A DNA stretch of 64,000 bases from Pyronema omphalodes (Eukaryota > Ascomycota > Pezizomycetes > Pezizales > Pyronemataceae). The stretch lies in NCBI GenBank assembly GCA_024516155.1, contig JAJJXM010000055.1, forward strand, positions 372,001 through 436,000. The letters are read 5' to 3'. A model generated the notes under the pieces. It was not told the origin of the DNA, ran no database searches, and worked only from the letters and a program-made list of their open reading frames with translations. Below are positions 33,874 to 63,765 of the stretch, piece by piece (position 1 is the first letter of the stretch; the number at the start of each line of letters is the position of its first letter). Position numbers and translations under genes: made by a program.

Positions 33874-34402
33874 TGTCAGGGAACTAGGAACGGACGTTCA
33901 GAGAACACACTGAACACTACCGGCAAGAGGGACTAGGCGGGTTCCAGGACGGGGAACGGAAAGACAAGGACCGAAGTGCTCGTCAGACGGACGACACACG
34001 AAACAGGGACAGGGACAAGGACAAGAATGACGTGGGACTGGAAGGAGAAGTCTTTATTAGGAGCAAGGGAAAGACACAAGACGTTCGATGGAGAACTCGA
34101 CAACGGGGAGGCAAGCCTCCTTATGTACAAAGGGGCGGCCAGCACTCTTGCTGGGCCGTCATCCAACATCGCTACATGAAAGCTTCCGTTCTCCATCAAT
34201 TCACCTGCGACGCCACAGCTCTCCAGTTTCTGGTACGTCATCCATCATCAATCAGTCTATCAATCACAACGGCACGGCACACACAACAACACAACGACAA
34301 CACAACACAACACGGCAAGACAACGGCACGATGTCGACAACAACAACGACAACACAATGATGACGCAACAACACAACGGCTCGTCAGCCGTGTGCCGTGA
34401 CA
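33874..34402 (-). repeat. 3' LTR of gypsy A3
   Basis: 529 bp, TGTCAGGG...CGTGACA, nearly identical to 39749-40277. Confidence 0.93.
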
Positions 34403-34412
34403 GTACCCCCCC
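34403..34412 (-). other. Polypurine tract of gypsy A3
   Basis: In element orientation the sequence CGGGGGGGTAC adjoins the 3' LTR, fitting the plus-strand primer of LTR elements. Confidence 0.6.
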
Positions 34413-34413
34413 G

Positions 34414-37400: not shown

Positions 37401-38138
37401 ATCCGTGAGGGGGGGCCTTGTCTTGTAGGGCGACGGTGATCTCATCCAACAATAGCGAGAACACTGTCAGGCTTTCGTCTTCTACCATTTCTTTGAAGTC
37501 GGAGATGGTCAGACATGAGATCGCTATTGGGGGTTCGTCCGGGGGGTCGGGGACCGAGTCTTCCAACTCCGGCATGGGGTTTGTGTCGGGCTCGTGGACA
37601 GCGGGAGGGGGCCTCGAGTCCAGGACCTCGACACCGGTTGTGCTTACAGGCAACGGGGTGCAGTTCCTTAGGCAGTATTGGGAGTCGAAGCTTACAGTGT
37701 TGGAACTGAAGCTTATTGTTACGTCGTGTTTCTTCAACCAGGGGATGCCCAACACCACCGGGTAGTGACCAACTTGGTGACGAACATGGGAAGGGTTTCC
37801 GAGTGACCATTGATGGTACACTCCACTTGGGCGAGGTGTGTGATGTTTCCTGAGGATATGGGGCGGCCGTCGATAACTTCGACCGTTCGGGAGGTGGATA
37901 GGGGGGTTAGGGGGAGTTTGTGATGGCGGGCGAAATTGCGGTCAACAAAGGCGATACCAGTGGCGCCGCAGTCAGCGAGCGCTACTGTTTTCACGGAGCG
38001 GTTATTGGAAAACAAGGAGCAAGAGAGAACAAGGTGTTTGCATTCTAACTTTCCAGTAAAACTTGCGCCCGATAATAGCAATGTATCAGCAATAATTTTC
38101 CCACCAGCGGCAGAGCCATCTTCTTGCAGCTGGTTTAT
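34414..38138 (-). pseudogene. A3 pol (protease-RT-RNase H-integrase-chromodomain), frameshifted
   Basis: The protease (about 38081-37740) has ALADCGATG and the shared [11 protein letters not shown] block. The frame changes near 37770, again in a G7 run near 37410, and again near 36970 inside RT. RT has the FGLTNAP block and [13 protein letters not shown] at 36460-36462 replaces a Trp. The long frame 36342-34414 (642 codons) carries RNase H, the integrase zinc finger (GHTCKRTK, where the usual Cys/His spacing is kept), the LDFV/SDRG/TERIN catalytic triad region and a C-terminal chromodomain (WFVDEILDSR, YLVKWTGHDSPTWEP). A chromodomain suggests targeting to methylated histone H3, as known for chromoviruses. 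Confidence 0.9.
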
Positions 38139-39481: not shown

Positions 39482-39713
39482 TCTGGCGGGCTCGGAGGAT
39501 TGGCTTGAGTCTGATGGTGTGGCGGACGTGCTCCTGGTAAGTGTAGTCCTGGAGTTCCCAGCGGACCACAAGGTAGCAGTGATTTTCTGCTCTTCGGATG
39601 GTTCTTCGCACTGCGCCAGCGAATCTGTCGGAAATACCAAAGGTTTCGTTTAGGGTGTGCGTTTCCAGGGATTGTTTTAAGACGTAGGTCCAAGCAGAAC
39701 CGGTGGGGTTCAT
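39471..39713 (-). CDS. A3 ORF0, 80-aa protein of unknown function
   Basis: An intact frame opening MNPTGSAWTYVLKQSLE. It ends with TAA (39473-39471) inside the gag start region (11-nt overlap). It has the same length and conserved blocks (FGISDRFAGAVRR, YLVVRWELQDY, HTIRLKPIL) as the A2 and A1 copies. Protein-level conservation, with identical positions of start and stop, argues for translation. No domain family is recognised. Confidence 0.72.
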   Translation of the reverse strand: MNPTGSAWTYVLKQSLETHTLNETFGISDRFAGAVRRTIRRAENHCYLVVRWELQDYTYQEHVRHTIRLKPILRARQNAR

Positions 39714-39737
39714 GCGTGTTGGTTGAATAATTATTCG

Positions 39738-39746
39738 ATCGAACGT
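39738..39746 (-). other. Candidate self-priming PBS of gypsy A3
   Basis: In element orientation ACGTTCGAT lies 2 nt after the 5' LTR. It is complementary to ATCGAACGT within the same LTR (plus-strand 39956-39964), downstream of a TACATAAG box. The same pairing exists in A2. Confidence 0.5.
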
Positions 39747-39748
39747 AA

Positions 39749-40277
39749 TGTCAGGGAACTAGGAACGGACGTTCAAAGAACACACTGAACACTACCGGCG
39801 AGAGGGACTAGGCGGGTTCCAGGACGGGGAACGGAAAGACAAGGACCGAAGTGCTCGTCAGACGGACGACACACGAAACAGGGACAGGGACAAGGACAAG
39901 AATGACGTGGGACTGGAAGGAGAAGTCTTTATTAGGAGCAAGGGAAAGACACAAGACGTTCGATGGAGAACTCGACAACGGGGAGGCAAGCCTCCTTATG
40001 TACAAAGGGGCGGCCAGCACTCTTGCTGGGCCGTCATCCAACATCGCTACATGAAAGCTTCCGTTCTCCATCAATTCACCTGCGACGCCACAGCTCTCCA
40101 GCTCATGGTACGTCATCCATCATCAATCAGTCTATCAATCACAACGGCACGGCACACACAACAACACAACGACAACACAACACAACACGGCAAGACAACG
40201 GCACGATGTCGACAACAACAACGACAACACAATGATGACGCAACAACACAACGGCTCGTCAGCTGTGTGCCGTGACA
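39749..40277 (-). repeat. 5' LTR of gypsy A3
   Basis: 529 bp, TGTCAGGG...CGTGACA, almost identical to 33874-34402. It contains a CAACA-rich microsatellite and the TACATAAG box in element orientation. Confidence 0.93.
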
Positions 40278-45999: not shown

Positions 46000-46576
46000 T
46001 AAGCAGTACCGCTTGACTTCTCCGTGCGTTATAGATTCGTCGTTCTCTTTTGACATCATGTATTCCTTCTCATTTTCTTTGCTTTTCTGTTTCCTTTGTT
46101 ATCGCGGGCGGAGTTGGATAGGAGAAGACAGTGGAAGGAGAAGGGACCGGGGTAGGAAGGGGGGATGGGATTGCGCGATGAGAGTTTTTCCTTTGATTAT
46201 TTCCTTTCTTTTGTTTTGTTTTTAAGGGCGGAAGGGGTATACGGCATTGCACGAGGAGAGAGAGGCGCGATGGGAAGGGGCAGAGTGGGCCGGCGGAGGT
46301 TATCTTTTTCTTTTTGCTCGTGGAGGAAATAAAGGCGGGAAAAACGGCTAAAACATGGGAGGGGAAGGGTGGAGAAAGAGAGGACACCCGGCGCGGTGGC
46401 CTCTGTGCGAACAGGGCACTGGAACAGCAGACGCGGTTGGACAACAAGACCAACGAAGTAACAGTGGGGACAGGACCACAAAATCACAGCCTAAGGGAGG
46501 ATCAGCGGAGGTAGAGACGGGACTTTGTTTTGTTTTTGCTTTTGACTTTCCATGTACTATAAACCTGTACCCTCGT
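46000..46576 (+). other. L2 3' UTR
   Basis: It is purine-rich and contains the box GGCGCGGTGGCCTCTGTGCG (about 46391-46410), which recurs with small changes in the 3' UTRs of L3, L5, L7 and the M elements. No A run follows ORF2 in this copy, unlike L1, L3 and L5. Confidence 0.7.
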
Positions 46577-46624
46577 CATAACCAATAAGGTTGCATACGA
46601 GTAATGAATAAACAAACAAACAAA
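46577..46624 (+). promoter_or_regulatory. L2 3'-terminal hairpin and (AAAC)n tail
   Basis: CATAACC-AATAA-GGTTGCATACGAG, then GTAATGAATAAAC and AAAC repeats. AACC/GGTT form the stem. Same type as M2 and L7. Confidence 0.65.
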
Positions 46625-46634
46625 CAGCTGTGAT
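46625..46634. repeat. Left TSD of LINE L3
   Basis: CAGCTGTGAT, repeated at 47714-47723. Confidence 0.8.
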
Positions 46635-47713: not shown

Positions 47714-47723
47714 CAGCTGTGAT
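47714..47723. repeat. Right TSD of LINE L3
   Basis: CAGCTGTGAT, matching 46625-46634. Confidence 0.8.
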
Positions 47724-49564
47724 TTTGTGGTCCTGTCCCCACTATTACTTCGTTGGTCCTGTTGTCCAACCGCGTCTGCTGTTCCAGTGCCCTGTTCGCA
47801 CAGAGGCCACCGCGCCGGGTGTCCTCTCTTTCCTCCTCCCTCCCCCTCCCATTTTTAACCATTTTTCCTCCTTTATTTCCTCCACAAAGCAAAAACGAAA
47901 CCAAAGCAAAGTTAAACAGCCGCCGGGCCACCCGTGCCCCCACTCTCCTCTCCTCTCTCACCTCCTCCGCCGGTGTCTCCTGACTCTTTCCCCTTTGAGA
48001 CACCCGGGCCTGCCCTGCCCCTCTTCTCCTCCCCTCTCTCCCTTTCTCCTTCCTTCTTCCTCAGCCTTCTCGCTGCTCCCCCTCGCCTCTCTCCCCTTCT
48101 TGTCGGTGGTGTCGTAAGTCCAAGATTGCCATTCCCAAGCACAATCTGGACGTTGATGCCTCCGCTCTTGACGACTTCTGCCCAAGTCTTCTTTGCAGAG
48201 GAGGTTGTCGTTCTGGGTTGGTGGGTATTCTTTCCCCGGCCGCCATTCTTTGTTGTAGAGGTCTTGCTGGGTGGCGCTGCCGTAGGTGTCGTCTCGTTCG
48301 CTTTCTGCTTCTTCCTCTGTGTAGCCTTCGCCTCCACAGTCTTCCATCCGTTCGACTCAGCAGGGGCAGCGCTTGGGGCGTGGGGTAGAGGTGTGTCCTG
48401 AACAGATGAACTGTCAGGGTGAGGTTCCAGTGTCACTTCGGTCGACGTGATCGCGAGGAGAGGTAGGGGGGACATAGGCTTGAGGGCATCAAGCTTGTCC
48501 TGGGCGGCGGTAGTCGCATGTTTCGAGTGCATCAGGCTTCGCACCGGTGATGCCACTCTCGGTTTGTGGTTCACCGGTCTTCTGTTTGTCGGTGAGGTGG
48601 GTTCGGTGTTCTGGTCGCTTCCCCTTCGCTTTCTCTTGCCAGGAGGGTTGCGAACAGCGTCCAGGACATCCTGAATGTCATGTTGGACGACGGACGGTTG
48701 CATAGTCATCTCTTCCATCGCTGAGGAAGAGGCCGTGAGGTTCGGTGAGGGGGGCGCCGAAATGACTTGTTGCTGTTCGTCGATTTTCTTCGTCAGGGCG
48801 TCCACAGCAGCCTTGAGAGCGGCTGTTTCTGCCTGTGTAGAGTCGTATGCTGCGCGCAGCTTCGTGTTTTTGCCGGTCAGAATGTCGAAGTTCGTCATCA
48901 TGACGTCGAATCTGTGGCGCATCTCATCGCTGTTGTTGCGTATGGTGTCATCGAGGGTATTAAAGCGTCGCTGTGTGTCCCGGTGGATCTGTTGTATCCC
49001 CAGGAAGCTTGCTCCTGTGAAAAGCGGTTCATGTTCACAGAACAGGGTGCTCAAGCTGCTATCGTTGTCGTCTTTTTTGATAGCGTCTCGCATAGCAATA
49101 ACCAGATTGCGGCGAAATTCTCTGAATCGGTTGTGCTCAGGTGTCGCTTGCTGCTGGTGTGTTGAAGCCGAAGGAACTGGTGATCCTGCCAAGACCACGC
49201 TCTGGAAGGGCTTTCCAGCGAGGTGTCCATCAACTTCATGAACTTTTCCATCTCTTTCATCAAATGAAGGATTAGATCCATCATGAGGAAGGTCGGCTAG
49301 AACATTGTACGCGTTTTCGGACCATTTCGATCGTCGGGCGTTGTTCTGTCGTTGTTTTGGCGACATTTCGTGAGGTGGGGTAAGCCAAAACTCGTGAAAA
49401 CTCTCATTTTGCGACAAAAGTCAACAAAAACAACGTAGAATTCCCTGAAAATTCAGAGAATAACGTAACAGAGTGCTGCGAATCCGAATCCGATGAGAAA
49501 ATCGGGGGTTTCGGTGCTCGTTGTTGAGAATGCAGGGGGGGGGGTCGCCGTTGCCGTGTGGTGT
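47718..49564 (-). mobile_element. M1, ORF1-only LINE-like element, 3' end truncated
   Basis: The 5' end is ACACCACACGGCAACGGCG (complement, starting 49564), followed by a C-rich tract and a short 5' UTR, then the 501-codon ORF1 and a LINE 3' UTR. It stops at the L3 target site before the terminal hairpin. No ORF2 is present between ORF1 and the 3' UTR. Confidence 0.82.
47912..49417 (-). CDS. M-type ORF1 protein, 501 aa, intact
   Basis: It opens MSQNESFHEFWLTPPHEMSP; the next ATG (MSPKQRQNN) is a plausible alternative start. The central part (about residues 140-220) is predicted to be coiled coil (RRFNTLDDTIRNNSDEMRHR, ALKAAVDALTKKIDEQQQ). A basic patch KRKRRGSDQ follows near 260, then a low-complexity Thr/Lys region. 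The motif TWAEVVKSGG is of the kind seen before the RNA-binding part of Tad-type ORF1 proteins. The C-terminus is Arg/Gly/Glu-rich and seems to be read-through of 3' UTR-like sequence. There is no zinc knuckle. It presumably binds element RNA, but its function is not proven. Confidence 0.75.
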   Translation of the reverse strand: MSQNESFHEFWLTPPHEMSPKQRQNNARRSKWSENAYNVLADLPHDGSNPSFDERDGKVHEVDGHLAGKPFQSVVLAGSPVPSASTHQQQATPEHNRFREFRRNLVIAMRDAIKKDDNDSSLSTLFCEHEPLFTGASFLGIQQIHRDTQRRFNTLDDTIRNNSDEMRHRFDVMMTNFDILTGKNTKLRAAYDSTQAETAALKAAVDALTKKIDEQQQVISAPPSPNLTASSSAMEEMTMQPSVVQHDIQDVLDAVRNPPGKRKRRGSDQNTEPTSPTNRRPVNHKPRVASPVRSLMHSKHATTAAQDKLDALKPMSPLPLLAITSTEVTLEPHPDSSSVQDTPLPHAPSAAPAESNGWKTVEAKATQRKKQKANETTPTAAPPSKTSTTKNGGRGKNTHQPRTTTSSAKKTWAEVVKSGGINVQIVLGNGNLGLTTPPTRRGERRGGAARRLRKKEGERERGEEKRGRAGPGVSKGKESGDTGGGGERGEESGGTGGPAAV

Positions 49565-50083
49565 AGCCAGTCAAGGGTGGCATAGTTGTCATTATGCGAG
49601 CCTGCCTCATTAACTGCAGATGCTATTTGGCCACGGTATTCACTGAACAGGCTGGGTTCAGTTGTCGCCTGTTTCTGCTTTGTTGAAGCCGAAGGAACTG
49701 GTGATCCTGCCAAGACCACGCTCTGGAAGGGCTTTCCAGCAAAGTTTCCATCAACTTCATCAACTTTTCCATCTCTTCCATGAAAAGTAGGGCTGGATCC
49801 ATCATGAGGAGGGTCGGCTAGAACGTTGTACGCGTTTTCGGACAGTTTCGATTGTTGGGCGTTGTTCTGTCGTTGTTTTGGCGACATTTCGTGATGTGGG
49901 GTAAGCCAAAACTCGTGAAAACTCAGATTTTGCGACAAAAGTCAACAAAAGCAACGTAGAATTCCCTGAAAATTCAGAGAATAACGTAACAGAGTGCTGC
50001 GAATCCGAATCCGATGAGAAAACCGGGGTTTCGGTGCTCGTTGTTGAGAATGCAGGGGGGGGGTCGCCGTTGCCTTGTGGTGT
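49565..50083 (-). mobile_element. M1b, 5' part of an M element (interrupted by M1)
   Basis: The 5' end ACACCACAAGG starts at 50083. ORF1 codons 1 to about 120 read to YATLDWL at 49565, where the 5' end of M1 follows. M2b on the other arm has the same junction to the base, so the nested state was duplicated rather than formed twice. Confidence 0.8.
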
Positions 50084-51053: not shown

Positions 51054-51571
51054 ACACCACACGGCAACGGCGACCCCCCCCTGCATTCTCAACAACGAGC
51101 ACCGAAACCCCGGTTTTCTCATCGGATTCGGATTCGCAGCACTCTGTTACGTTATTCTCTGAATTTTCAGGGAATTCTACGTTGCTTTTGTTGACTTTTG
51201 TCGCAAAATCTGAGTTTTCACGAGTTTTGGCTTACCCCACATCACGAAATGTCGCCAAAACAACGACAGAACAACGCCCAACAATCGAAACAGTCCGAAA
51301 ACGCGTACAACGTTCTAGCCGACCCTCCTCATGATGGATCCAGCCCTACTTTTCATGGAAGAGATGGAAAAGTTGATGAAGTTGATGGAAACTTTGCTGG
51401 AAAGCCCTTCCAGAGCGTGGTCTTGGCAGGATCACCAGTTCCTTCGGCTTCAACAAAGCAGAAACAGGCGACAACTGAACCCAGCCTGTTCAGTGAATAC
51501 CGTGGCCAAATAGCATCTGCAGTTAATGAGGCAGGCTCGCATAATGACAACTATGCCACCCTTGACTGGCT
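51054..51571 (+). mobile_element. M2b, 5' part of an M element (interrupted by M2)
   Basis: It begins ACACCACACGG and encodes ORF1 codons 1 to about 120, with one amino-acid difference from M1b (SKQSEN against SKLSEN). It ends at the M2 5' end. Confidence 0.8.
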
Positions 51572-51718
51572 ACACCACACGGCAACGGCGACCCCCCCCC
51601 CTGCATTCTCAACAACGAGCACCGAAACCCCCGATTTTCTCATCGGATTCGGATTCGCAGCACTCTGTTACGTTATTCTCTGAATTTTCAGGGAATTCTA
51701 CGTTGTTTTTGTTGACTT

Positions 51719-53224
51719 TTGTCGCAAAATCAGAGTTTTCACGAGTTTTGGCTTATCCCACCTCACGAAATGTCGCCAAAACAACGACAGAACAACGCCC
51801 GACGATCGAAACGGTCCGAAAACGCGTACAATGTTCTAGCCGACCTTCCTCATGATGGATCTACTCCTACTCTGGATGGAAGAGATGGAAAAGTTGATGA
51901 AGTTGATGGAAACTTCGCTGGCAAGCCCTTCCAGAGCGTGGTCTTGGCACGATCACCAGTTCCTTCGGCTTCAACATCGCAGCAACAGGCGACAACTGAA
52001 CACAGCCGGTTTAGTAACTACCGTCGCATAATGGTATCTGCAATTAATGAGGCAGTCGCAGTTGACGACAACTATGCCACCCTAGATCAACTGTTTATAG
52101 ACAACTACGCCGAATTCACTGGAGCCAGCTTCCTGGGGATACAACAGATCCACCAGGACACACATCGTCGCTTCAATACCCTCGATGACACCATACGCAA
52201 CAACAGCGATGAGATGCGCCACAGATTCGACGTCATGATGACGAAATTCAACATGCTGACCGACGAAAACACGAAGCTGCGCGCAGCATACGACTCTACA
52301 CAGGCAGAAACAGCAGCTGTCAAGGCTGCTGTGGACGCCCTGACGAAGAAAATCGACGAACAGCAACAAGTCATTTCGGCGCCCCCCTCACCGAACCTCA
52401 CGGCCTCTTCCTCAGCGATGGAAGAGATGACTATGCAACTGTCCGTCGTCCAACATGACATTCAGGATCTCCTGGACGCTGTTCGCAACCCTCCTGGCAA
52501 GAGAAAGCGAAGGGGAAGCGACCAGAACACCGAACCCACCTCACCGACAAACAGAAGACCGGTGAACCACAAACCGAGAGCGGCATCACCGGTGCGAAGC
52601 CTGATGCACTCGAAACATGCGACTACCGCCGCCCAGGACAAGCTTGATGCCCTCAAGCCTATGTCCCCCCTACCTCTCCTCGCGATCACGTCGACCGAAG
52701 CGACACCGGAACCTCACCCTGACAGTCCATCTGCTCAGGACACACCTCTACCCGACGCCCCAAGCACTGCCCCTGCTGAGACCGACGGATGGAAGACTGT
52801 GGAGGCCAAGGCCACACAGAAGAAGAAGATGAAAGCGAAGGAGACGACATCTACGGCAGCGATACCCAAACAGACCCCTACAACGAAGAATGGTGGAAGG
52901 GGTAAGAATACCCACCAACCCAGAACAACAACCTCCTCTGCAAAGAAGACTTGGGCAGAAGTCGTCAAGAGCGGAGGCATCAACGTCCAGATCGTGCTTG
53001 GGAATGGCAATCTTGGACTGACAACACCACCGACAAGAAGGGGAGAGAGGCGAGGGGGAGCAGTGAGAAGGCTGAGGAAGAACGAAGGAGAAGGGGAGAG
53101 AGGGGAGGAGAAGAGGGGCAGGGCGGGCCCGGGTGTCTCAAAGGGCAAAGAGTCAGGAGACACCGGCGGAGGAGGTGAGAGAGGAGAGGCGAGTGGGGGC
53201 ACGGGTGGCCCGGCGGCTGTTTAA
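51719..53224 (+). CDS. M-type ORF1 protein, 501 aa, intact (M2)
   Basis: The same length, start context and domain order as the M1 copy: MSQNQSFHEFWL, coiled coil around residues 140-220, basic KRKRRGSDQ patch, TWAEVVKSGG near 420, Arg/Gly-rich tail. Residues about 85-125 differ strongly from M1 (YRRIMVSAINEAVAVDDNY against FRRNLVIAMRDAIKKDDND) but resemble M3, while the flanks are nearly identical. Two uninterrupted copies suggest either recent activity or selection on this protein. RNA-binding function is inferred from position in a LINE-like element. Confidence 0.75.
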   Translation: MSQNQSFHEFWLIPPHEMSPKQRQNNARRSKRSENAYNVLADLPHDGSTPTLDGRDGKVDEVDGNFAGKPFQSVVLARSPVPSASTSQQQATTEHSRFSNYRRIMVSAINEAVAVDDNYATLDQLFIDNYAEFTGASFLGIQQIHQDTHRRFNTLDDTIRNNSDEMRHRFDVMMTKFNMLTDENTKLRAAYDSTQAETAAVKAAVDALTKKIDEQQQVISAPPSPNLTASSSAMEEMTMQLSVVQHDIQDLLDAVRNPPGKRKRRGSDQNTEPTSPTNRRPVNHKPRAASPVRSLMHSKHATTAAQDKLDALKPMSPLPLLAITSTEATPEPHPDSPSAQDTPLPDAPSTAPAETDGWKTVEAKATQKKKMKAKETTSTAAIPKQTPTTKNGGRGKNTHQPRTTTSSAKKTWAEVVKSGGINVQIVLGNGNLGLTTPPTRRGERRGGAVRRLRKNEGEGERGEEKRGRAGPGVSKGKESGDTGGGGERGEASGGTGGPAAV

Positions 53225-53505
53225 CTTTGCTTTGGTTTCGTTTTTGCTTTGTGGAGGAAATAAAGGAGGAAAAATGGTTAAAAATGGGAGGGGAAGGGAG
53301 GAGGAAAGGGAGGAGCCCGGCGAGGCGGCCTCTGTGCAAGCAGGGCACTGGAACAGCAGACGCGGTTGGACAACAGGACCACCGAAGTAATAGTGGGGAC
53401 AGGACCACAAAATCACAGACTAAGGGAGGATCAGCGAAGGTAGAAACGGGACTTTGTCTTGTTTTTGCTTTTGACTTTCCATGTACGATAAACCTGTACC
53501 CTCGT

Positions 53506-53556
53506 CATAACCAATAAGGTTGCATACGAGTAATGAATAAACAAACAAACAAACAA
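53506..53556 (+). promoter_or_regulatory. M2 3'-terminal hairpin and (AAAC)n tail
   Basis: CATAACC-AATAA-GGTTGCATACGAG, then GTAATGAATAAAC and AAAC repeats, the same as in L2 and L7. Confidence 0.65.
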
Positions 53557-53580
53557 GGGAGGTTTGTTGTTTGTTTGTTT

Positions 53581-53616
53581 GTTCTCTCATTACTTGTTTG
53601 CAACCCGAAGGTTATG
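53581..53616 (-). promoter_or_regulatory. L5 3'-terminal hairpin
   Basis: In element orientation CATAACC-TTCG-GGTTGCAAACAAG and GTAATGAGAGAAC. AACC/GGTT stem with a UUCG-type loop. Confidence 0.6.
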
Positions 53617-54307
53617 ACAAGGGACAGATAAATACAAAAGAGAAGAAGAAAGAAATGTAAAAGCAAAAACCCAGTCTCCACCTCTACCAGTCTCCTCCTC
53701 TTGATCGTTGTGGTTGTGGGGTCTGTCCCCACTGTATACTTCGGGGGTTTCTTGTCCAAGCGCGTCTGATGTTCCAAGTGCCCTGCTTGCACAGAGGCCG
53801 CCTCGCCGGGCTCCTCCCTTTCCTCCTCCCTTCCCCTTCCCATGTTTAGCCATTTTACCGCCTTTGTTTCCTCCGCGTACAAAAGAAAAAAGATAACTCC
53901 CGCCGCCCTCCTCTGCCCCTTCCCCGTGCCCCTCTCTCTCCTTTCGCAACGCCTCGCACTCCTCCCGCCCTCCGAACATAAGAAAAACATCGTCGCACCC
54001 AAACAAAGGAAAGTACAAAAGAAACTCGTCTGCCCTCTCTCGCCTGCCGTCCCCTTCATCTTCCTTCCTGTGCACCATTCCACCATCCGTTCCCTTCTCA
54101 CCCGTCGCACCATAAAACAACTCCAACCCGTAAGACAAACAATTGAAAGACAAAGAAAAGAAAACAAAAGAAAACAAAAAGAAAACAAGACTCAAAACAC
54201 CCGAACCCCAAGCAGACCCAAGCAACGACCCCAGCCCGATCCCGTCACCGCGTGCCCGTTCCCTTTCTCTCCGCCTATCACTCTTCTACCTTCCCCTTTT
54301 GCTTGTC

Positions 54308-54310
<3 letters not shown>

Positions 54311-54338
<28 letters not shown>
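54311..54338 (-). repeat. Internal poly(A) run downstream of L5 ORF2
   Basis: T28 on the plus strand, about 97 nt beyond the ORF2 stop and about 750 nt before the true 3' tail. Compare L1 and L3. Confidence 0.88.
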
Positions 54339-54341
<3 letters not shown>

Positions 54342-54434
54342 CAAAAACAGAAATCCTAAGTAAGAAAGCACTGCAAAATCAGCGCGCGCGAAAGTTCCTA
54401 AGGTACTGCGGTCAGTGTAGTCAGCGGTAGGGGT

Positions 54435-57400
54435 CTATCCCCTTCTGCGAGGCTTCTCTAGCCGGGCGTGTGCCCAGGTCGAGGTAGCAACCTTGGTTGC
54501 AGAGATAAAGGTGGAAAGAGCCTTGGTGCCGGAGGGGGTGTCCAGAATGGTGTTTAGGTTGATCCGGGAGTGTTGTCTGAGTTTGAGGTCCTTCCTGAGT
54601 GTGGAGCGAGCGGCCTGGAATTCGGGGCAGCTCAGGAGGAGGTGTCGAGGCGTCTGCGGTGGGTGGATTGGGCAGCTGCAGCTGCGGGAGGGGTATGCGT
54701 CGGATGGAGGGTGGGCCAAGCAGTTGAGGAAGTACCCGTGGCCGGTGCGAAGACCCAGGATTGCAGTTGATATCCAGCGGGGGTTTTCGGTGTACGCAGT
54801 GTCCATTGTGCGGCGGTGTGTGGCGGTGTACGTGCGCGGTCGGGGGGAAGAGGTGAACCAGGTAGCCCAGTCTTCGGTGTACCTCTCTCGAGCGCGGCGG
54901 CGCAGCCAAGTGAGGGATATCGGTATTCGTCGGCGTGGCGGTACTGTTGTCGCCTGTCTGGCCAGTTCGTCGGCGGCTTCGTTTCCGGGGACACTAGTGT
55001 GTCCTGGGACCCAGTGGATGGTAATTGAGGTACCGTAAGCGTGAAGGTCGTGAGCGGTGTTGTGGATGGCCCAGGCGAGCTCCTGGCCGGGGCCTCGACG
55101 GAGGTGAGAGGCTCGATGTATCGCGGCCTGGTTGTCGGTAAAAACGTGGATGTGTTTGTCGTATAGGTCGTTGCGTCGAATATGTGTCAGGCATGTCCGG
55201 AGTCCTTCGTGGATGGCCATAACTTCCGCGTCGAAGACTTCTGTTCTGTCGCCCATGGGCACTATGGAGTCGACAGGTCGTGGCAGCCCGTGGGGGATGG
55301 TGTATCCTGCGCCTGTTATGCCGTCAAGTTGAGAGCCGTCCGTGTACAGTAGGATAGTATCCGATCGTTGGCGAAGGGCGTGGAGGAGGAGGAGGTGGTC
55401 GTCGGCAGCGTCAGCCTTCGGGGAGGAGGAGATGTCGATCGTTAATGTAGGGGCGAGGTCGTCGTCGGGGATGTTTTGGGAGGTGTCCTCGATTTCGGCG
55501 TTTGGTTGGACCCACGGGGAGAGGGTGCTGATGACGTGCAGGAGGCGGGACGGGGCTTGTCCTGGGACGTGCCACGGGTGGTCGTACTCGGTGTCCGGGT
55601 TGATGGAGGCATCATTGATACTCGGGGCGGGAAACGAGACGGGGCAGCGTGTGATGATAGGGTGCGAAGCGGGTAAGGTGAGGGTGCGCAGGGCGTATTT
55701 CCGCTGGCGGTTGTCAAGACGTATTGTGACGGGAGGGAGTGCGGATTCATTGTGGAGGGCCAGGACCGGAGTAGAGGTGAAAGCGTTGAGAATCCTGCGC
55801 AGGGCGGTGTTCTGTTGATTCTGGAGGGTGCGGGCAAGGTCTTTTTGTTGGTTCCACCATATCTCTGCGCCGTAGTCTGCTCTCGACTGGACACACGCCT
55901 GGTAGATTAGTCTTGTAGCAGCGGGGGACAGACCTGTTTCGTACCGTGCTAACCTACACAGTGCGTTCAGAGTTCTTTGCGCGGCGGTTACTCGTCTAGC
56001 TACATGTTTTCTAAAGTTAAGTTTCCTATCTAAATACAGGCCTATCCACCTCACAACATCCTTCTCTCCTCCTTGTGTTCCCGGTGTGATAACTGTACCG
56101 TTTGGTAACTTAACTTTTCCCTCCTCAGTGATGCTATCGGTGCGTGCCCAGTGGAAATGCAGGAGCTCTGACTTGGCATCGTCAAATGCAACGGCGTTTG
56201 CGTCGGCCCACCGAAAGGCTGTTGTCGTGATGTTCTCAAGTGCGCGGGCGTTCGCTTTTCTGGTGCGTCCCTGGACGACGATCGCTACGTCGTCAATGTA
56301 GCTAGGTGTCCAGGCGTACGGGTGTACCTGCGCTAGTTCGTCGAATAATGGGCGGAGGTATAATAAGAAAAGTATGGGGGATGCAGGGGAACCTTGTGGG
56401 ATGCCTGTTTGCACTGGGCGTTGCGTGTCAGTTCGCCCGTCGAACGCTAGAGCGATCGTGCGATCTGCGAGGAAAGACTGGCACCACGATACTACTGGTC
56501 GCGGGCACCCAAGCTGTCGTAATGTTTGTTGGAGGCGGTCAGCAGAGACGTGGTCGAACGCTCCACGAACATCGAGGAAGAGGGCAGAGGTTAGCATTCC
56601 GTGAGATTTCCCAATCTCAACGTCGTGCACCAGCGCCATCGCCGCGTCAATTGCTGATCTCTGCGGGCGTCCACCTATTTGGTCTCTATGTAGTAAGTCG
56701 TGAGAGTCTGCCATCGTGCCTAGGCGAGTGGCCATTAGTTTTTCGAGGGTCTTCCCAAGGCAGTTTAGGAGCGCAATCGGACGGTATGCCTTTGGATTGC
56801 TGTAATCCGGCTTGTTAGGTTTGGCGATAATGACTGTGGTGGCCTGGCGCCAGCATCGCGGATGGTAGCCCACCGTCCCTAATGTGGCGTAGAGGTTGTT
56901 CATGTGTTTGGGGATGGCAAGGTATGCTTGGCGCAGGCAGGCGAATGTGAGCCCATCGGGTCCGGGCGCCTTCGTCGGCGAGGAGGAGAATATCGCTGTT
57001 TCTACCTCTGTCGGTGTAAAGGTGGTCCACTGCAACTCGCGGCGCGGGGGGAGGACGGACGGAGGCGGTGGTGGCGGCGGCGGGGGAAACAACTTTTGGA
57101 AGGCCTCTACCTTTGCGTCGAAGGAGCTGCAGATTGTTTCTTGGCCGTTTATCATTGCGCGGAGGTTTGGTGTTAGCTGAGCACGCCGAGGGTTGGTGTA
57201 CCTAAACGCCTGCCACACATCGGGTCCTTCGGCTTGGGAAAGATATTCCTTCCACTTTGCATCTTTCGCCGTTCGAATGGTCCTGTGGTATTCGTTTCGG
57301 TGTTGTTTGTAGTTTAGGTGGGATCTATCGTCACGTTTGCGTTTCCACTTACGTCTTGCTTTGGTCATCTTTTTCCTTGCCTCGGTGACTTCTGCGGTCC

Positions 57401-58355
57401 ACCATCTCTTCGATTGTGGGGTCACTTGTAGTACGGGGGTGGACGTAGTCGCGGCATTAAGGATGGCATCACGTATTGACTCCGCCCACGCATCGAGGTT
57501 GTCTGTGGTAGGGTGGTTGCGGTATTGTGTCCATGATGGTGTGAGGGCTAAGCACGAGGCACGGAGGGTTTCGGCGAAGAGCTCCCAATCCGTCTTTTTC
57601 CAGTTCAGTCGGTTTGTTGGGGGGGTTGTTTCAGCGTCTGGGTGGGTTGTGTGCACTTCGAAACGTATGACTTCATGGTCAGATCCCGTAGCGTTGTCGT
57701 CGTCAATTGCCCAGTTGATTGTTTCCTCTGCCATGTGGGGTGATGCTAGGGTCAGGTCGAGGACGGAAGAACTGCGGCCTTGGTTGTAGTAGTAGGTGGG
57801 AATGTCAGGGACGGACACGAGGGTCCAGTCTCGTTGTTCGATGAGGTCAACTATTTCGGTGGCGCGGGTGGGGGAACGTGTGGAGGAGTTCCACAGGGCA
57901 TGGTGGGCGTTGAGGTCACCTGTGATGATGCACCTGCGGGGGAGGGGGAGGGGGGTGAGGGCTCTCGGGATGGTATAAATATTGCTTTCGGGGTGTTTTT
58001 CGTTGTACATATTAAGAAGAAAGAAAGAAGGAATTAAGTCGGTGCCTACCTCGAGGACCTGGAGGTCAGGATCCGCGCATATATCGGTGCGCTGAGAAAC
58101 CCTGAGGTATGGGTTTGTCCTGGTCACATAGGCGGCTGTTCTGTTGGTGGTTCTGTCCCCACGCGGTGGCAAGACCAGTGTGAACGATGGGTGTGTGGTG
58201 GCGTATGTTATGTCGGTAATGTGAATTTCTTGTATTAGGATTATGTCGGCTGTGTTGTCTGCGCTATTCAGCAGCGCATCGAGTGCTGTTCGTTGTCGGT
58301 TCACGTTGTGGGAGACGATCCGTATGGTTGCTGCCAGTATGTTGTAGCTAGACAT
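54435..58355 (-). CDS. L5 ORF2: intact LINE endonuclease-reverse transcriptase-RNase H, 1306 aa
   Basis: The enzyme for target-primed reverse transcription. The AP-endonuclease-like domain (about 1-235) shows IILIQEIH with E43, TGDLNAHHALW (145-155) and GSDHEVIRF (224-232). RT (about 460-740): KAYRPIALLNC (522-532), FLDVRGAF (593-600), GIPQGSPASPI (651-661), catalytic YIDD (686-689). RNase H (about 1000-1140) has the acidic set D1006 (YTDGS), E1044 and D1074 (FTDNQAA), and a HWVPGHTSVPGNEAAD block. A C-terminal Cys/His segment CSCPIHPPQTPRHLLLSC follows. No stop or shift in 1306 codons makes this the only visibly complete LINE polymerase in the window. Its ATG overlaps the ORF1 stop by 8 nt (ATGTCTAG). 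Confidence 0.95.
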   Translation of the reverse strand: MSSYNILAATIRIVSHNVNRQRTALDALLNSADNTADIILIQEIHITDITYATTHPSFTLVLPPRGDRTTNRTAAYVTRTNPYLRVSQRTDICADPDLQVLEVGTDLIPSFFLLNMYNEKHPESNIYTIPRALTPLPLPRRCIITGDLNAHHALWNSSTRSPTRATEIVDLIEQRDWTLVSVPDIPTYYYNQGRSSSVLDLTLASPHMAEETINWAIDDDNATGSDHEVIRFEVHTTHPDAETTPPTNRLNWKKTDWELFAETLRASCLALTPSWTQYRNHPTTDNLDAWAESIRDAILNAATTSTPVLQVTPQSKRWWTAEVTEARKKMTKARRKWKRKRDDRSHLNYKQHRNEYHRTIRTAKDAKWKEYLSQAEGPDVWQAFRYTNPRRAQLTPNLRAMINGQETICSSFDAKVEAFQKLFPPPPPPPPPSVLPPRRELQWTTFTPTEVETAIFSSSPTKAPGPDGLTFACLRQAYLAIPKHMNNLYATLGTVGYHPRCWRQATTVIIAKPNKPDYSNPKAYRPIALLNCLGKTLEKLMATRLGTMADSHDLLHRDQIGGRPQRSAIDAAMALVHDVEIGKSHGMLTSALFLDVRGAFDHVSADRLQQTLRQLGCPRPVVSWCQSFLADRTIALAFDGRTDTQRPVQTGIPQGSPASPILFLLYLRPLFDELAQVHPYAWTPSYIDDVAIVVQGRTRKANARALENITTTAFRWADANAVAFDDAKSELLHFHWARTDSITEEGKVKLPNGTVITPGTQGGEKDVVRWIGLYLDRKLNFRKHVARRVTAAQRTLNALCRLARYETGLSPAATRLIYQACVQSRADYGAEIWWNQQKDLARTLQNQQNTALRRILNAFTSTPVLALHNESALPPVTIRLDNRQRKYALRTLTLPASHPIITRCPVSFPAPSINDASINPDTEYDHPWHVPGQAPSRLLHVISTLSPWVQPNAEIEDTSQNIPDDDLAPTLTIDISSSPKADAADDHLLLLHALRQRSDTILLYTDGSQLDGITGAGYTIPHGLPRPVDSIVPMGDRTEVFDAEVMAIHEGLRTCLTHIRRNDLYDKHIHVFTDNQAAIHRASHLRRGPGQELAWAIHNTAHDLHAYGTSITIHWVPGHTSVPGNEAADELARQATTVPPRRRIPISLTWLRRRARERYTEDWATWFTSSPRPRTYTATHRRTMDTAYTENPRWISTAILGLRTGHGYFLNCLAHPPSDAYPSRSCSCPIHPPQTPRHLLLSCPEFQAARSTLRKDLKLRQHSRINLNTILDTPSGTKALSTFISATKVATSTWAHARLEKPRRRG

Positions 58356-59663
58356 GGGCGTTCATCTCAGTGTCTCTGTCGGCTGGGTTGGGTGGGGCGG
58401 CGGCGGGGTTTTGTGACGCTGTCCAGGCTTCTTTGAATATGCGGATGCGTACGGGGCATTGCTTGCTGAAGCCTGGGAGGTCGAGGTCGGGGAGGTTGGC
58501 GTCCGCGCAGTTTTTGCAATGGTATCTAGTGTGCTCACAACGCTTACCTTTGCTTTGGGGGCAGTCGTTGCAGGCGTGGTCGTCCGTGGGGTGGTTCTGG
58601 CCGCAGATGCCGCAGGTGGGGCCTTGCGGTCCAGTGCAGTTGGTGTAGTGGTGGCCAAAGAGCAAGCAGCGCCGACACTGGTCGGTCCGTCGGGCAGAGT
58701 GGTACTCGGTGACTCTTCGGGGCTCGAAGAGTACCATGACTCGTTTGCGCTTCAGGAGTGCGAGCTCTTCGGCGGTACGTACCGCAATAACCACACTGGA
58801 CGCTTCCTTGCCCACACGCTTCTCCGCGGTCGTCATATATCGGGGGGGTTGCGCCAGGGTGACAGATCCGTTGCTGCGTTCGATCTCCTCCTGGAGGGAG
58901 CGCATTCCGTCGGGGGAGTCGGGGTATTGGCTCGTGGGGATTCCATGAACTGCGAGCTTATACCACCGTTCGTTCAGGCGGGGTGCGGCGATGGAGGTGT
59001 TGACCTGTCGCGTCGCTGTGTGTATGGTCCCTAGGTTCTCGGTCAGCTCGGATTCAGTGGTGCCGTCTGTCATGGTCACGATGAGGTTTCGTGATGAGGC
59101 TTGTCTGATCGTGGCGACAGCCATGTGAGGCGGCGCCTGTGTCTGGGTGAGTGCAGCGTTGATCGCCCTTCCCAGTTGGGCTTTGGTATTGACGTCGATT
59201 TCCGCAGGGTGTGGGAAGGGTATCATGATGGACTGGGGGCGGGTGCGTTGGCGTCGGGGGTGCGGTTTTGCGGGGGGGGTTGCTTTTAGGGGCGTGGGCG
59301 GGGAAGGAGAGGTCAGCGACGGTTGTGCCGGAGGTCCACGGCTGGTGAGTGGTCGTGGGGGGGTTGTGGCGGCGAGTAGTGGTGGAGGTCGGTATGGCGA
59401 TGTTGTGGTGGCGAAGGGCGTTTTCCAGGGGTCGGCATCGTTCTTTCCAGTATTGGAGGTCGTCGGGGGGTGAGTTGGCGGTGGTCGTTTGTTCGGGGTG
59501 GGGTTGACGTTGGGGCTGTGTCGGAGGGGGAGGGCTGGGTTTTGTGATTTTGTCGAGTCTTTTGTTGATGGTGTCGATGGAATGGACAATAGGTCGGAGC
59601 GCGTCGTTGGTGTTTTTCGAAATCATAGTGGCGATGGCTGAGAGGAGGTTGTTGTCGGGCTGA
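58348..59663 (-). pseudogene. L5 ORF1, C-terminal two thirds (frame change in a C8 run)
   Basis: From 59663 the frame reads LLSAIATMISKNTNDALRP through YWKERCRPLENALRHHNIAI, which parallels L1 ORF1. In the C8 run at about 59272-59279 the reading must change to the frame that contains RRQRTRPQSIMIPFPHPAEI. That frame continues to three zinc knuckles (CRRCLLFGHHYTNC, CGICGQNHPTDDHAC, and a third cluster) and stops at 58348. L6 has C7 and a single frame here. This is therefore a homopolymer indel, a sequencing error, or a slippage site. The N-terminal part is on the other side of M3. Confidence 0.82.
59649..59663. repeat. Left 15-bp TSD of M3
   Basis: TTGTTGTCGGGCTGA, identical to 61846-61860. 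Confidence 0.93.
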
Positions 59664-61845
59664 TTTATTTATTTATTTATTTATTAACTCATACACGCAT
59701 CCAACCGTAAGGTTATGGCGGAATCTACAGTAAATACGAAATTAAGAAACCCGTGTGTTAGGCCAGGCTCTCACTGGGTATGCCCCAGAGCTTGTCGTTA
59801 GGGTGTGGGGTTGTAGACCCCCAAATCTCGTTGTGCTTTTGTTCGTCAAGCGTCGTCTGTTCCAGGAGCCCTGTACGCTCGGAGGCCACCTCGCCGGGTC
59901 GTTCCCCCATTTCCTCCACCCTTCCCCTCCCATTTTTAACCATTTTTCCGCCTTTATTTCCCCCACAAAGCAAAAACAAAACCAAAGCAAAGTTAAACAG
60001 CCGCCGGGCCCCCTACGCCCCCACTCTCCTCCCCTCTCTCAACTCCTCCGCCGGTGTCTCCTGACTCTTTGCCCTTTGAAACACCCGGGCCCGCCCTGCC
60101 CCTCTTCGCCTCCCCTCTCTCCCCTTCTCCCTCCTTCTTCCTCAGCCTTCTCGCTGCCCCGCCTCGCCTCTCTCCCCTTCTTGTCGGTGGTGTTGTAAGT
60201 CCAAGATTGCCATTCCCAAGCACAATCTGGACGTTGATGCCTCCGCTCTTGACGACTTCTGCCCAAGTCTTCTTTGCGGAGGGGGTTGTCTGTCTGGGTT
60301 GGTGGGTATTCTTTCCCCTCCCACCATTCTTCGTTGTAGGGGTCTTGCTGGGTGTCGCTGCCGTAGGTCTCGTCTCCTGCGCTTTCATCTTCTTCTTCTG
60401 CGTAGCCTTCGCCTCCACAGTCTTCCATCCGTTCGTCTCAGCAGGGGCAGTGCTTGGGGCGTCGGGTAGAGGTGTGTCCTGAGCAGATGAATTGTCAGGG
60501 TGAGGTTCCGGTGTCGCATCGGTTGACGTGATCGCGAGGAGAGGTAGGGGGGACATAGGCTTGAGGGCATCAAGCTTGTCCTGGGCGGCGGCAGTCGCAT
60601 GTTTCGAGTGCATCAGGCTTCGCACCGGTGATGCAGCTCTCGGTTTGTGGTTGACCGGTGCTCTGGTCGTTGGTGAGGTGGGTTCGGTGTTCTGGTCGCT
60701 TCCCCTTCGCTTTCTCTTGCCAGGAGGGTTGCGGACAGCGTCCAGGACATCCTGAATGTCATGTTGGACGACGGACAGTTGCATAGTCATCTCTTCCATC
60801 GCTGAGGAAGAGGCCGTGAGGTTCGGTGAGGGGGGGCGCCGAAATGACTTGTTGCTGTTCGTCGATTTTCTTCGTCAGGGCGTCCACAGCAGCTTTGAGA
60901 GCTGCTGTTTCTGCCTGTGTAGAGTCGTATGCTGTGCGCAGCGTCGCGTTTTCGAAGAGCAGATCGTTGAATTTCGTCATCATGACGTCGAATCTGCCGT
61001 GTATCGCATCGTTGTTGTTGCGTATGGATTCCTCGAGTGTATTGAAGCGTCGCTGTGTGTCCCGGTGGATCTGTTGTATCCCCAGGAAGTTGGCTCCAGT
61101 GAGTTCGGCGCAGTTGTCATGGAACAGCTGATCCAGCGTGACATAGTTGTCATCAGCTGCGACTGCCTCATTAATCGCAGATACACACAAGCGACGGTAG
61201 TGACTGAACCGGCTGTGTTCAGTTGTCGCCTGTTGCTGCTGTGTTGAGGGCGAGGGAACTGGTGATACTGCCGGCACCACGGTCTGGGAGGCCGTCCCAG
61301 TGAAGTTTCCATCAACTTGTTTGGCTTTTCCATCTCTTCCATCAGAGGCAGTCTTAGGTCTATGACGGTACATCTTGGCCATGTACGCTTCTATCAACTG
61401 TTCATTCGTCTGTTGCTGCTGGGTTGAAGCTGAAGGAACTGGTGATCTTGCCAAGACCACGCTCTGGAAGGGTTTTCCAGCGAAGTTTCCATCAACTTCA
61501 TCAACTATTCCATCTCCTCCATCAAAAGTAGGATCGGATCCATCATGAGGAGGGTCGGCTAGAACATTGTACGCGTTTTCGGACCGTTTCGATCGTCGGG
61601 CGTTGTTCTGTCGTTGTTTTGGCGACATTTCGTGAGGTGGGGTAAGCCAAAACTCGTGAAAACTCTGATTTTGCGACAAAAGTCAACAAAAACGACGTAG
61701 AATTCCCTGAAAATTCAGAGAATAACGTAACAGAGTGCTGCGAATCCGAATCCGATGAGAAAACCGGGGGTTTCGGTGCTCGTTGTTGAGAATGCAGGGG
61801 GGGGGTCGCCGTTGCCGTGTGGTGTGCCGCGTCGAGTCGCACTTT
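59664..61845 (-). mobile_element. M3, full-length ORF1-only LINE-like element inside L5 ORF1
   Basis: 2182 bp bounded by perfect 15-bp TSDs. The 5' end in element orientation is AAAGTGCGACTCGACGCGGC followed by the common ACACCACACGG. It carries ORF1 but no ORF2. The 3' UTR has the GGCGAGGTGGCCTCCGAGCG box, the type-1 terminal hairpin (complement of 59685-59720: CATAACC-TTAC-GGTTGGATGCG) and an (AAAT)n tail. The TSDs prove that the unit mobilised as a whole. Confidence 0.92.
59993..61679 (-). pseudogene. M3 ORF1, one frameshift, internal duplication
   Basis: 61679-60759 reads the N-terminal half (MSQNQSFHEFWLTPPHEMSP; coiled coil with EESIRNNNDAIHGRF and KAAVDALTKKIDEQQQ). An extra G in the G7 run near 60831 shifts the frame. 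60799-59993 reads the rest (268 codons, TWAEVVKSGG, Arg/Gly-rich end). The N-terminal part contains a diverged tandem duplication of about 60 residues (DGNFAGKPFQSVVLARSPVP and DGNFTGTASQTVVPAVSPVP), absent from M1 and M2. Confidence 0.85.
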
Positions 61846-61860
61846 TTGTTGTCGGGCTGA
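61846..61860. repeat. Right 15-bp TSD of M3
   Basis: TTGTTGTCGGGCTGA, identical to 59649-59663. Confidence 0.93.
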
Positions 61861-62255
61861 GGCTGGGGGTCGGGGTTGACGTCGGAAGCAGTTATTGCGT
61901 GCTGGCTGTCGTTGAGGTTTAGGTCAGAGTCGGATTCGGAGTCGGTGTCGGGGCAACTGTCAGTGTCCATGGCGGTCGGCATTGTTTCGACGGGGGTCCC
62001 ATCGAGGTTCACGTGGGTGTCTGTTTTCGGTCGGGTGACATTTTTGCGGAGGAGGTCGAGGTCACGTCTAGAGGCGGATGTTTTGGTGGGGGGTTTGGTG
62101 ACTTTTCCGGAGACGGTCGTTGATTTCTTAGAGGTCGCGATGGCGGAGGAGCCAGCGTGCGGGGCGTTGATTCGGGAAAGCTCGTCGGGGCTAAAAATAT
62201 TCTCGGGTACCTGCATACGCGAGGGCGTGGCGGGGATGGGTGCGTTAGCGTCCAT
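61861..62255 (-). pseudogene. L5 ORF1, N-terminal part
   Basis: Starts MDANAPIPATPSRMQVPENI, Ser/Thr/Asp-rich with an acidic stretch (DTDSCPDTDSESDSDLNLND), and runs in frame to the M3 insertion at QPQPDN. It would continue directly into 59663 if M3 and one TSD were removed. Start chosen as the first ATG of the open frame. Confidence 0.75.
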
Positions 62256-62705
62256 CGCTTAACCGGTGGTACGGTAAGCGATGGCGAAGAGTCACGTGAG
62301 GAGGCTCTTGCTAAGCGAGCACGAAAATTTCTCGCGAGGAAAGGGGTCCGGAGGGGGGGAAATTTGGGGTATCACCACAACCAGTGCTGCTGGTGGGGGG
62401 GGGATTTGGGGGGGGGGGGGGATTTCGGTATGCCGAAACCGAAAATAAGGTCGGTTTGATGATTGGGGGGGCGGGTGGTGGAGCGGCGTTGATGAAAGTG
62501 CCCGGAATCCGGCCCGGAGGTCCCAGAATCGCGTTTTTTCCGCTGAATCTCAACGGTAAACGGTAGCTGGGTTCCGAAAGTCGAGATTCGGGGTAATTCC
62601 GAGGTAAGAAATCGATTGCCAATTCGAAAATCGGGGAAATTGTTGTTGTTGTCGCAAATGCAGGGGGGGGTCAGCGGTTGCTGTGTGGTGTTTTTGCGGC
62701 TAAAT
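62256..62705 (-). other. L5 5' UTR
   Basis: Contains long G/C homopolymers (about 62395-62420) and, at its outer end, ACACCACACAGCAACCGC with a C-rich tract. This 5' terminus is clearly related to the 5' ends of the M elements (ACACCACACGGCAACGGCG). Confidence 0.65.
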
Positions 62706-62797
62706 CTGTTTAGGAGGGAGTCGAGGGCTGGGCGTTGGCGATTCATGTTATGGGAAACTATTCGGATTGTCGTTGCCAATTGTTTGTAATTAGACAT
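62706..62797 (-). pseudogene. L6 ORF2, first codons
   Basis: MSNYKQLATTIRIVSHNMNR then ALDSLLN, as in L2, then L5 sequence. The start overlaps the ORF1 stop by 8 nt. Confidence 0.8.
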
Positions 62798-63765
62798 GTT
62801 GGATCATGTCGGTGTCTTTGTCTGTAGGGTTGGGTGAGGTAGAGGCGGCGGGTTGGGTTGCCTCTCTGGGTTCCTTGTGGATGCGGAGGCGAGTCGGCCA
62901 TTGTTTGTGAAAGGCGGGATGGTCATGTTCGGGGATGCCAGCCTCGACGCAGTTTCTGCATCCGTACTTAGTGTGTGAGCACGACTTACCGTTTCTCGTC
63001 GGGCATTCGGTGCAGTTGTGGTTCTCCGTGGGGTGTTCTTTTCCACAGAGGGCGCAGATCGGTCCGGGGGGTCGAGTGCAGGTTGCGTGGTGGTGGCCGT
63101 AGAGTTGGCACCGTCGACATTGATCGGTTTTCCTCGCGGTGAAGTATTCGGTGACCCTTCGCGCTTCGAAGAGGACCAGCACCTTACGGCGTTTGAGGAG
63201 GCCCAACTCGTCGGGCGTGCGCACTGCAATTACTAGACTGGAGGCCGTCTTGCCAGCGGGCTTTTCTGCCGTCGTCATGTACCGCGGAGTCTGGGCCAGG
63301 GTGACCGGGTTGTTGCTCCGTTCGATTTCTTCCCGGAGGAGGCGCATTCCTTCCTCAGTGTCGGGGAAGATGTCCGTGGGGATGCCGTGGACGGCGAGTT
63401 TATACCATCCTTCGTTGATGCGAGGGCTGTCGAGAGAGGGGTGTACCGTTTGGGCAGCGCGTTGAATTGTTTCTAAGTGTGCGGTTAGCTCTTCGGCAGT
63501 GGTAGCAGGGTTCAGTGTCAAGATGATATTTCCCGCTTCGTTTTTGCGGACCGTAGTGACTCCCATGTGAGAGGGGGCTTTGGCCTCCAGCAGTGCTTTG
63601 TTCACTGCGAAGCCCATTTCTACTCTCGTGTGGACCGGGAGGACACTGGGGTCGGGCAGGGCAGAACGATTTCCTGGGGGCGGGTTCGGGGCTGTCGTTT
63701 GACAACGGGGCGAGTAGTGGCGGGTGTGGGGTTGGTGGGGGGGTTGGCTTTGAGGAGATGTTTGT
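62790..63765 (-). pseudogene. L6 ORF1, N-terminally truncated by the L7 tail
   Basis: One open frame from the junction at 63765 through RPVVKRQPRTRPQEI and the conserved central domain (KLAVHGIPTDIFPDTEEGMR, TLAQTPRYMTTAEK). It continues into three zinc knuckles and ends DMIQHV. No frame change occurs in its C7 run, unlike L5. The original start is lost. Confidence 0.83.

Follow-up and report, generated by a model that had tools for sequence, protein, structure and literature searches.

To our knowledge, the non-autonomous parasites of LINEs are mostly protein-less SINEs or elements that retain the ORF1 of their own partner. Mammalian HAL1 (half-L1) encodes ORF1 of its partner LINE. SINEs are short, are transcribed by RNA polymerase III and encode no protein; they are mobilised via a 3' end shared with a LINE and can change partner by tail exchange. 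HAL1 elements are the subject of Bao and Jurka 2010 (cited in PMC4161310), and SINEs with LINE-derived 3' tails are dealt with in PMC3747384. HeT-A of Drosophila is presented, in the portion of the source cited here, as an abundant non-LTR element with a single protein (Gag) and no pol, whose RT is presumably borrowed from relatives and whose transposition is telomeric (PMC5537684).

The window is a stretch of 64,000 nucleotides of Pyronema omphalodes (contig JAJJXM010000055.1, positions 372,001 to 436,000), and an earlier note on it had described three units, M1, M2 and M3, as LINE-like elements encoding only ORF1. Followed through the assembly (60.77 Mb, 232 contigs), M is very probably a non-autonomous, protein-coding non-LTR element set in a LINE shell, mobilised in trans and exchanging its tail, with a protein for which we infer a role. 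The element is ~2 kb long and carries one protein and no ORF2. Three groups were distinguished: group A, of 484 aa with LINE-5 or LINE-4 tails; group B, of 480-482 aa with LINE-C tails; and group C, of 482 aa with a differing coiled-coil module and LINE-C tails. LINE-5 is the L5 of the earlier note, and LINE-4 and LINE-C are names given in this analysis. The M copies of the window and their neighbours are the following.

47717-49564, minus strand: M1, with a LINE-4 type 3' UTR, terminal tail lost
47912-49417, minus strand: M1 ORF, 501 codons from TTG, with an ATG at 49366
49571-50083, minus strand: 5' piece of M joined upstream of M1
51054-51562, plus strand: 5' piece of M, head-to-tail upstream of M2
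51572-53556, plus strand: M2, full-length M element with a LINE-4 type tail (93.0%)
51770-53224, plus strand: M2 ORF, 484 aa from ATG, 501 codons from TTG at 51719
59664-61825, minus strand: M3, with a LINE-C type tail and a central module that is group-A like by eye
59664 and 61825, minus strand: start of the (AAAT)n tail and canonical 5' base of M3, respectively
61826-61845, minus strand: 20 additional nt separating the canonical 5' base of M3 from the upstream TSD
59649-59663 and 61846-61860: TSD copies of M3, TTGTTGTCGGGCTGA, perfect over 15 bp
60759-61679, minus strand: N-terminal part of the M3 ORF (TTG at 61679, ATG at 61628), containing an internal duplication
59993-60799, minus strand: C-terminal part of the M3 ORF, in a different frame
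59664-59985, minus strand: 3' UTR and (AAAT)n tail of M3, LINE-C type, 97.5% identity to LINE-C over 283 nt
33335-33873, plus strand: fragment of an M element
53560-62691, minus strand: LINE-5 (L5) copy in which M3 is inserted, its 5' end at 62691 similar to the M 5' end
54435-58355, minus strand: LINE-5 ORF2, 1306 aa, with endonuclease, RT and RNase H
58348-59589, minus strand: 3' part of LINE-5 ORF1, split by M3, with one CCHC motif, apparently unrelated to the M ORF
62790-63617, minus strand: ORF1 fragment of a LINE-4 copy, with one CCHC motif, apparently unrelated to the M ORF
46306-46626, plus strand: 3' UTR of a LINE-4 copy, of the same tail type as M1 and M2

The window also holds an LTR retrotransposon (34000-40174, minus strand) with 300-nt ends 99% identical, a gag frame at 38135-39640 and an integrase with chromodomain at 34414-36342. 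M1 (47717-50083, minus strand) and M2 (51054-53556, plus strand) each have an upstream M 5' piece of ~512 nt abutting the full copy. This is what one would expect had a 5'-extended dimer been copied as a unit, and the mutual orientation of the two is inverted.

The defined 5' end attributed to M1, M2 and M3 was recovered in the window, where the M 5' 17-mer has 6 sites when up to 3 mismatches are allowed (0.17 expected), and genome-wide, with 208 exact sites (partial 5' pieces included) against 0 for the reversed control. Patterns of another length, the 5' 19-mers of LINE-5 and LINE-C, gave 148 and 83 exact sites. The unbroken 501-codon ORF reported for M1 and M2 is present when counted from TTG, the frame from the first ATG being 484 aa. 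The M3 ORF is frameshifted as had been stated, being split over two frames, and contains an internal duplication of ~119 nt.

A DNA search with M2 as query produced 897 first-look candidates; 40 were scored and 30 loci fetched. These DNA-picked loci (M2 among them), M1, M3 and 12 loci of groups B and C form the set of 44 M units. The alignment starts at the first 6 nt in 29 of the 30 DNA-picked loci and only at position 32 in L028; in L045 the first ~40 nt are missing. A LINE tail is present in 40 of the 44 units, the exceptions being L027, L028, M1 and L046, which end within the 3' UTR. The breaks in L027, L028 and M1 each abut an inverted LINE 3' end, which in M1 has cut off the terminal tail. 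The ATG frame is complete in 25 of the 30 DNA-picked copies (exceptions L002, L003, L014, L022 and L029). The search of the genome with the M protein, biased to good copies, scored 86 ORFs, 70 of them stop-free; the group B protein shows 57-61% identity to the other groups.

Target site duplications were sought at each copy. Among the 36 of 44 copies that could be parsed, 23 have a match of at least 10 bp; mismatched pairs, used as control, gave such a match in 7 of 1260. Three of the 23 are doubtful, the matches of L019 and L024 being to repeats nearby and that of L013 not being at the end of the tail. The perfect 15-bp duplication of M3, TTGTTGTCGGGCTGA at both ends, stands as first described. 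With a genome-wide family and these duplications, the view that M is a mobile unit and not an accidental deletion holds. The genome paper of P. confluens, in the section cited, reports few high-identity repeats and the perhaps incurred loss of long perfect repeats in assembly (PMC3778014), whereas the assembly used here has many repeats at more than 95% identity.

The absence of any trace of ORF2, claimed for three copies, extends to the family: LINE-5 ORF2, the LINE-5 ORF1 fragment and LINE-C ORF1 matched 0 of the 44 units (tblastn, E 0.01), and the M protein matched 44 of 44 in the same set. The tail is without ORF2 in 28 of the 30 DNA-picked copies, L027 and L028 stopping inside the 3' UTR. 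A case against the earlier reading, in which most copies would have an ORF2 behind this ORF, was looked for from the 5' ends and was not seen. Among 100 listed of the 208 17-mer sites, a scored M ORF lies directly behind in 35; of the other 65, 20 were sampled over ~1 kb each and all 20 enter the start of the M ORF, L071 and L074 being rearranged. The idea that M copies are deletion derivatives was rejected because listed and sampled 5' ends lead into M. LINE ORF2 sequence was found upstream of the M 5' end in four of these 20 (L073, L075, L077 and L079) and LINE-4 DNA in L082, so M appears to be often located inside LINEs.

Pairs of an M ORF and a LINE-5 ORF2 on the same strand within 4.5 kb number six, from 145 scored M ORF rows and 36 scored ORF2 rows. 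The closest, at C54 with a gap of 330 nt, was considered as a unit of M ORF followed by ORF2 and was rejected: it is explained by insertion of an M into LINE-5 ORF2, the duplication ACAGCCGACATAATC fitting the ORF2 reading TADII. The candidates at C11, C155 and C151:82473 were also discarded, a LINE-5 5' end lying between M and ORF2. The last two M ORFs, C151:109051-110553 and C211:35355-36797, have a same-strand LINE-5 ORF2 3.8 and 3.1 kb downstream and are counted against the best explanation.

The LINE shell of M, the only part shared with LINEs, consists of ~45 nt at the 5' end and the terminal ~300 nt of the 3' UTR. Over its first 48 nt M is similar to LINE-5 and LINE-C at their 5' ends, with 0 of 2000 shuffles scoring as well in each of four M-LINE comparisons and likewise in the one LINE-LINE comparison. 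LINE-type sequence resumes 2 to ~30 nt past the M stop codon. The best tail match is LINE-5 in 26 of the 31 group A copies (96.6-99.4% identity), LINE-4 in the other five (L001, which is M2, L008, L023, L029 and M1; 93.0-95.1%) and LINE-C in all 13 of groups B, C and M3 (97.2-98.9%); the matched lengths are short in L046 (88 nt), M1 (150 nt), L028 (162 nt) and L027 (179 nt). For comparison, LINE-5, LINE-4 and LINE-C are 75-84% alike among themselves where alignable, and the M3 3' UTR matches LINE-5 at 82% over 89 nt and LINE-C at 97.5% over 283 nt. M tail repeats are (AAAC)n or (AAAT)n. Of the common LINE 3' UTR first ascribed to M1, M2 and M3, the LINE type is thus retained in all three and the common tail is not, M1 and M2 being of LINE-4 type (with the terminal tail lost in M1) and M3 of LINE-C type.

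LINE-C, a third LINE family with an (AAAT)n tail, was discovered via the tail of M3. The tail-C pattern has 169 sites and, among 100 listed, 19 have a scored M ORF. Eighteen of the other 81 listed sites were sampled and comprise 10 LINE ORF2 ends (~56-65% identity to LINE-5 ORF2), five M, one internally deleted LINE and two without class. LINE-C copies are L054-L058, L060, L061, L063, L065 and L068, together with L089 and L091. In one copy, read in stretches, the ORF1 frame has 674 codons and ORF2 is 61% identical to that of LINE-5 over 1177 aa. In L062 the LINE ORF2 ends near residue 437 and is joined straight to the LINE-C 3' UTR, an internal deletion.

All tail types have a hairpin AACC-loop-GGTTG near the 3' end, with the inner stem AACC/GGTT. 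The outer stem is CTTGT/ACAAG in LINE-5 and CTCGT/ACGAG in LINE-4, one position being changed on both sides, and in LINE-C it is partly kept with one mismatch (all by eye). The folding z-scores of the tail RNAs are weak and unexceptional (-0.69, -1.03, -1.57 and +0.51); the last value belongs to the M3 tail, whose minimum-energy fold lacks the hairpin.

These 5' ends, 3' UTRs and duplications, all of them LINE-like, would suit a true half-LINE, that is, a LINE without ORF2 that has kept its own ORF1 as mammalian HAL1 has, and the source of such an ORF1 might be a LINE that is extinct or not sampled. The order of coiled coil and then basic region also resembles part of the layout of L1 ORF1p. 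The comparison of the ORFs points the other way: hhalign, run with the profile of 70 M sequences, returned a probability of 0.6% against LINE-C ORF1, again 0.6% against the fragment of LINE-4 ORF1 (62790-63617) and 0.2% against that of LINE-5 ORF1. The three LINE ORF1s compared (LINE-5 and LINE-4 as fragments) have one CCHC motif apiece, which occurs in 0 of 70 M proteins, M2 (484 aa) being without any cysteine. No Pfam gag or knuckle match was obtained in the M protein at E 0.01, a null that is weak evidence because Pfam also finds 0 families in the LINE-5 ORF1 fragment. Judged by its sequence, the M ORF thus appears unrelated to those portions of the three LINE ORF1s that were available (for LINE-4, a fragment lacking the N-terminal part), and its identification as a LINE ORF1 is not supported. 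With the M profile matching none of the three ORF1s, the half-LINE reading was set aside and is held to be improbable; on these hhalign values and the lack of CCHC in M proteins, M does not count as a half-LINE of the HAL1 type. The fungal parallel to HAL1 proposed at the outset does not extend to the ORF, that of M showing no homology to the ORF1 of the partner LINEs seen.

The M ORF is maintained by selection. As had been proposed, dN/dS was compared between copies, using open frames only (27 of the 32 window or group A copies; L002, L014, L022, L029 and M3 were dropped and L003 was retained despite a frameshift near its end). The NG86 values within groups are 0.57 in A (27 copies), 0.43 in B (8) and 0.40 in C (4), and between groups 0.44 for A-B, 0.63 for A-C and 0.42 for B-C. 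Variant-count omega was tested against a neutral null from UTR or ORF mutation spectra. In group A it is 0.70-0.73 for private variants (p 0.005-0.012) and 0.57-0.60 for shared ones (p 0.005-0.009), and in group B 0.42-0.47 for shared variants (p 0.02-0.04); the group B private variants, with omega 0.65-0.73, showed no significant departure from neutral (p 0.09-0.17).

The ORF could also be a passenger or a long-lived relic, M then being a long SINE-like element moved via its LINE tail. Such a reading would draw on the weak constraint of private variants (omega 0.65-0.73) and on codons 80-120, which within group A have dN/dS ~1.0. Against it, the A-B core is constrained, with dN/dS 0.14 at dS 1.5 in codons 200-240 and 0.20 at dS 1.3 in codons 280-320 (the block 240-280 has no computable value); the group B rows at an identity of at least 95% are stop-free in 16 of 16, four of them partial; and homologues of similar length exist at ~50% identity. 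A passenger ORF is accordingly given little credence.

Two regions of the ORF behave differently. In codons 400-488, the purine-rich 3' part, A-B dS is low (0.07-0.25), and because dS drops there a nucleotide-level constraint or exchange is hinted at. Codons 60-180 are a swapped coiled-coil module: groups A and C share as little as 43% identity there, compared with 87-97% ahead of it and 84-99% behind it, the latter range applying to blocks from codon 160 to 480.

No Pfam family fits the M protein and a search of solved structures gave no match, only weak coiled-coil matches being obtained. AlphaFold2 (70 sequences, the first without its first two residues) gave a mean pLDDT of 58.6 and helices at 68-95, 100-199 (blocks with pLDDT 73-96) and 212-237, the rest being mostly of low confidence. 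The helix at 212-237 falls in the most conserved region. The protein is described here as a predicted coiled coil, a conserved helix and a basic tail. Homologues number 147 in a single-sequence search and 422 in a profile search. Among the 120 listed single-sequence matches, 104 have the source jgi, taken as metagenomes, and 16 are from P. omphalodes; no Pfam domain occurs among the 120 matches listed in either search. No P. domesticum name appears among the listed M homologues, a species where LINE-C ORF1 has a 56% relative. One annotated P. omphalodes hypothetical protein, P0094, has a LINE ORF1-like N-terminus (by eye) and an M C-terminus and is probably a gene model spanning a nested insertion.

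RNA binding by the M protein is a guess, because it has no known domain. The protein might instead oppose silencing by the host, whether quelling, RIP or chromatin, which would benefit both M and its LINEs. The swapped module at codons 60-180 has the look of an adaptation to a partner that changes, and clusters of basic residues, noted by eye, could serve as nuclear signals, whereas the most conserved segment, a helix followed by a basic region, is equally suited to RNA binding. A silencing antagonist in place of RNA packaging is considered rather unlikely.

For M as a non-autonomous element in a LINE shell, the proposed cycle would begin at the ~45 nt of LINE 5' end, probably an internal promoter, with M transcripts beginning ACACCACACGG. 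The tail matches and duplications suggest that the tail-matched LINE supplies, through its ORF2 protein, the reverse transcription of M RNA in trans. The dependence on an autonomous LINE such as L5 that had been anticipated is thereby kept as probable, with L5 not being the best partner for M3, whose tail is LINE-C. Tails are exchanged among the three LINE families as a visible pattern, which template switching or recombination may have produced. The M protein would most likely bind M RNA in cis, replacing or hijacking the LINE ORF1p/RNP step. A more specific form is offered tentatively, as a real possibility: that M is a LINE satellite with its own, independently acquired RNP gene, in which a non-ORF1p protein packages in cis, a swap of the 3' tail alone switches among three LINE polymerases and the coiled-coil module diversifies by recombination.

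M in P. omphalodes can be regarded as a natural experiment on LINE polymerase recognition, through its terminal ~300 nt and the shared hairpin, and bears also on whether an unrelated protein can replace ORF1p. Both questions are testable in one genome with three autonomous partners and many open-frame M copies. M further accounts for a set of P. omphalodes gene models named hypothetical protein (16 of the 120 matches listed). No fungal element of this kind is described in the titles and abstract starts found among open PMC papers.

Compared with autonomous LINEs, M is without ORF2 (0 of 44 units). With HAL1 it shares the non-autonomous state, LINE ends (the LINE 5' end and 3' UTR being kept and ORF2 absent), one ORF without RT and reliance on an autonomous LINE, but the HAL1 ORF is the ORF1 of its partner whereas that of M appears unrelated to the ORF1s seen and its tails come from three LINE families. 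With HeT-A, as far as the source portion cited above describes it, M has in common being an abundant non-LTR element with a single protein and no pol; it differs in that the protein of HeT-A is a Gag and its target the telomeres, whereas M has no CCHC knuckle and inserts internally with duplications. With SINEs it shares a 3' end common with a young LINE family, target site duplications and tail repeats, and it differs from them in its 2 kb of length, its maintained ORF and its LINE 5' end.
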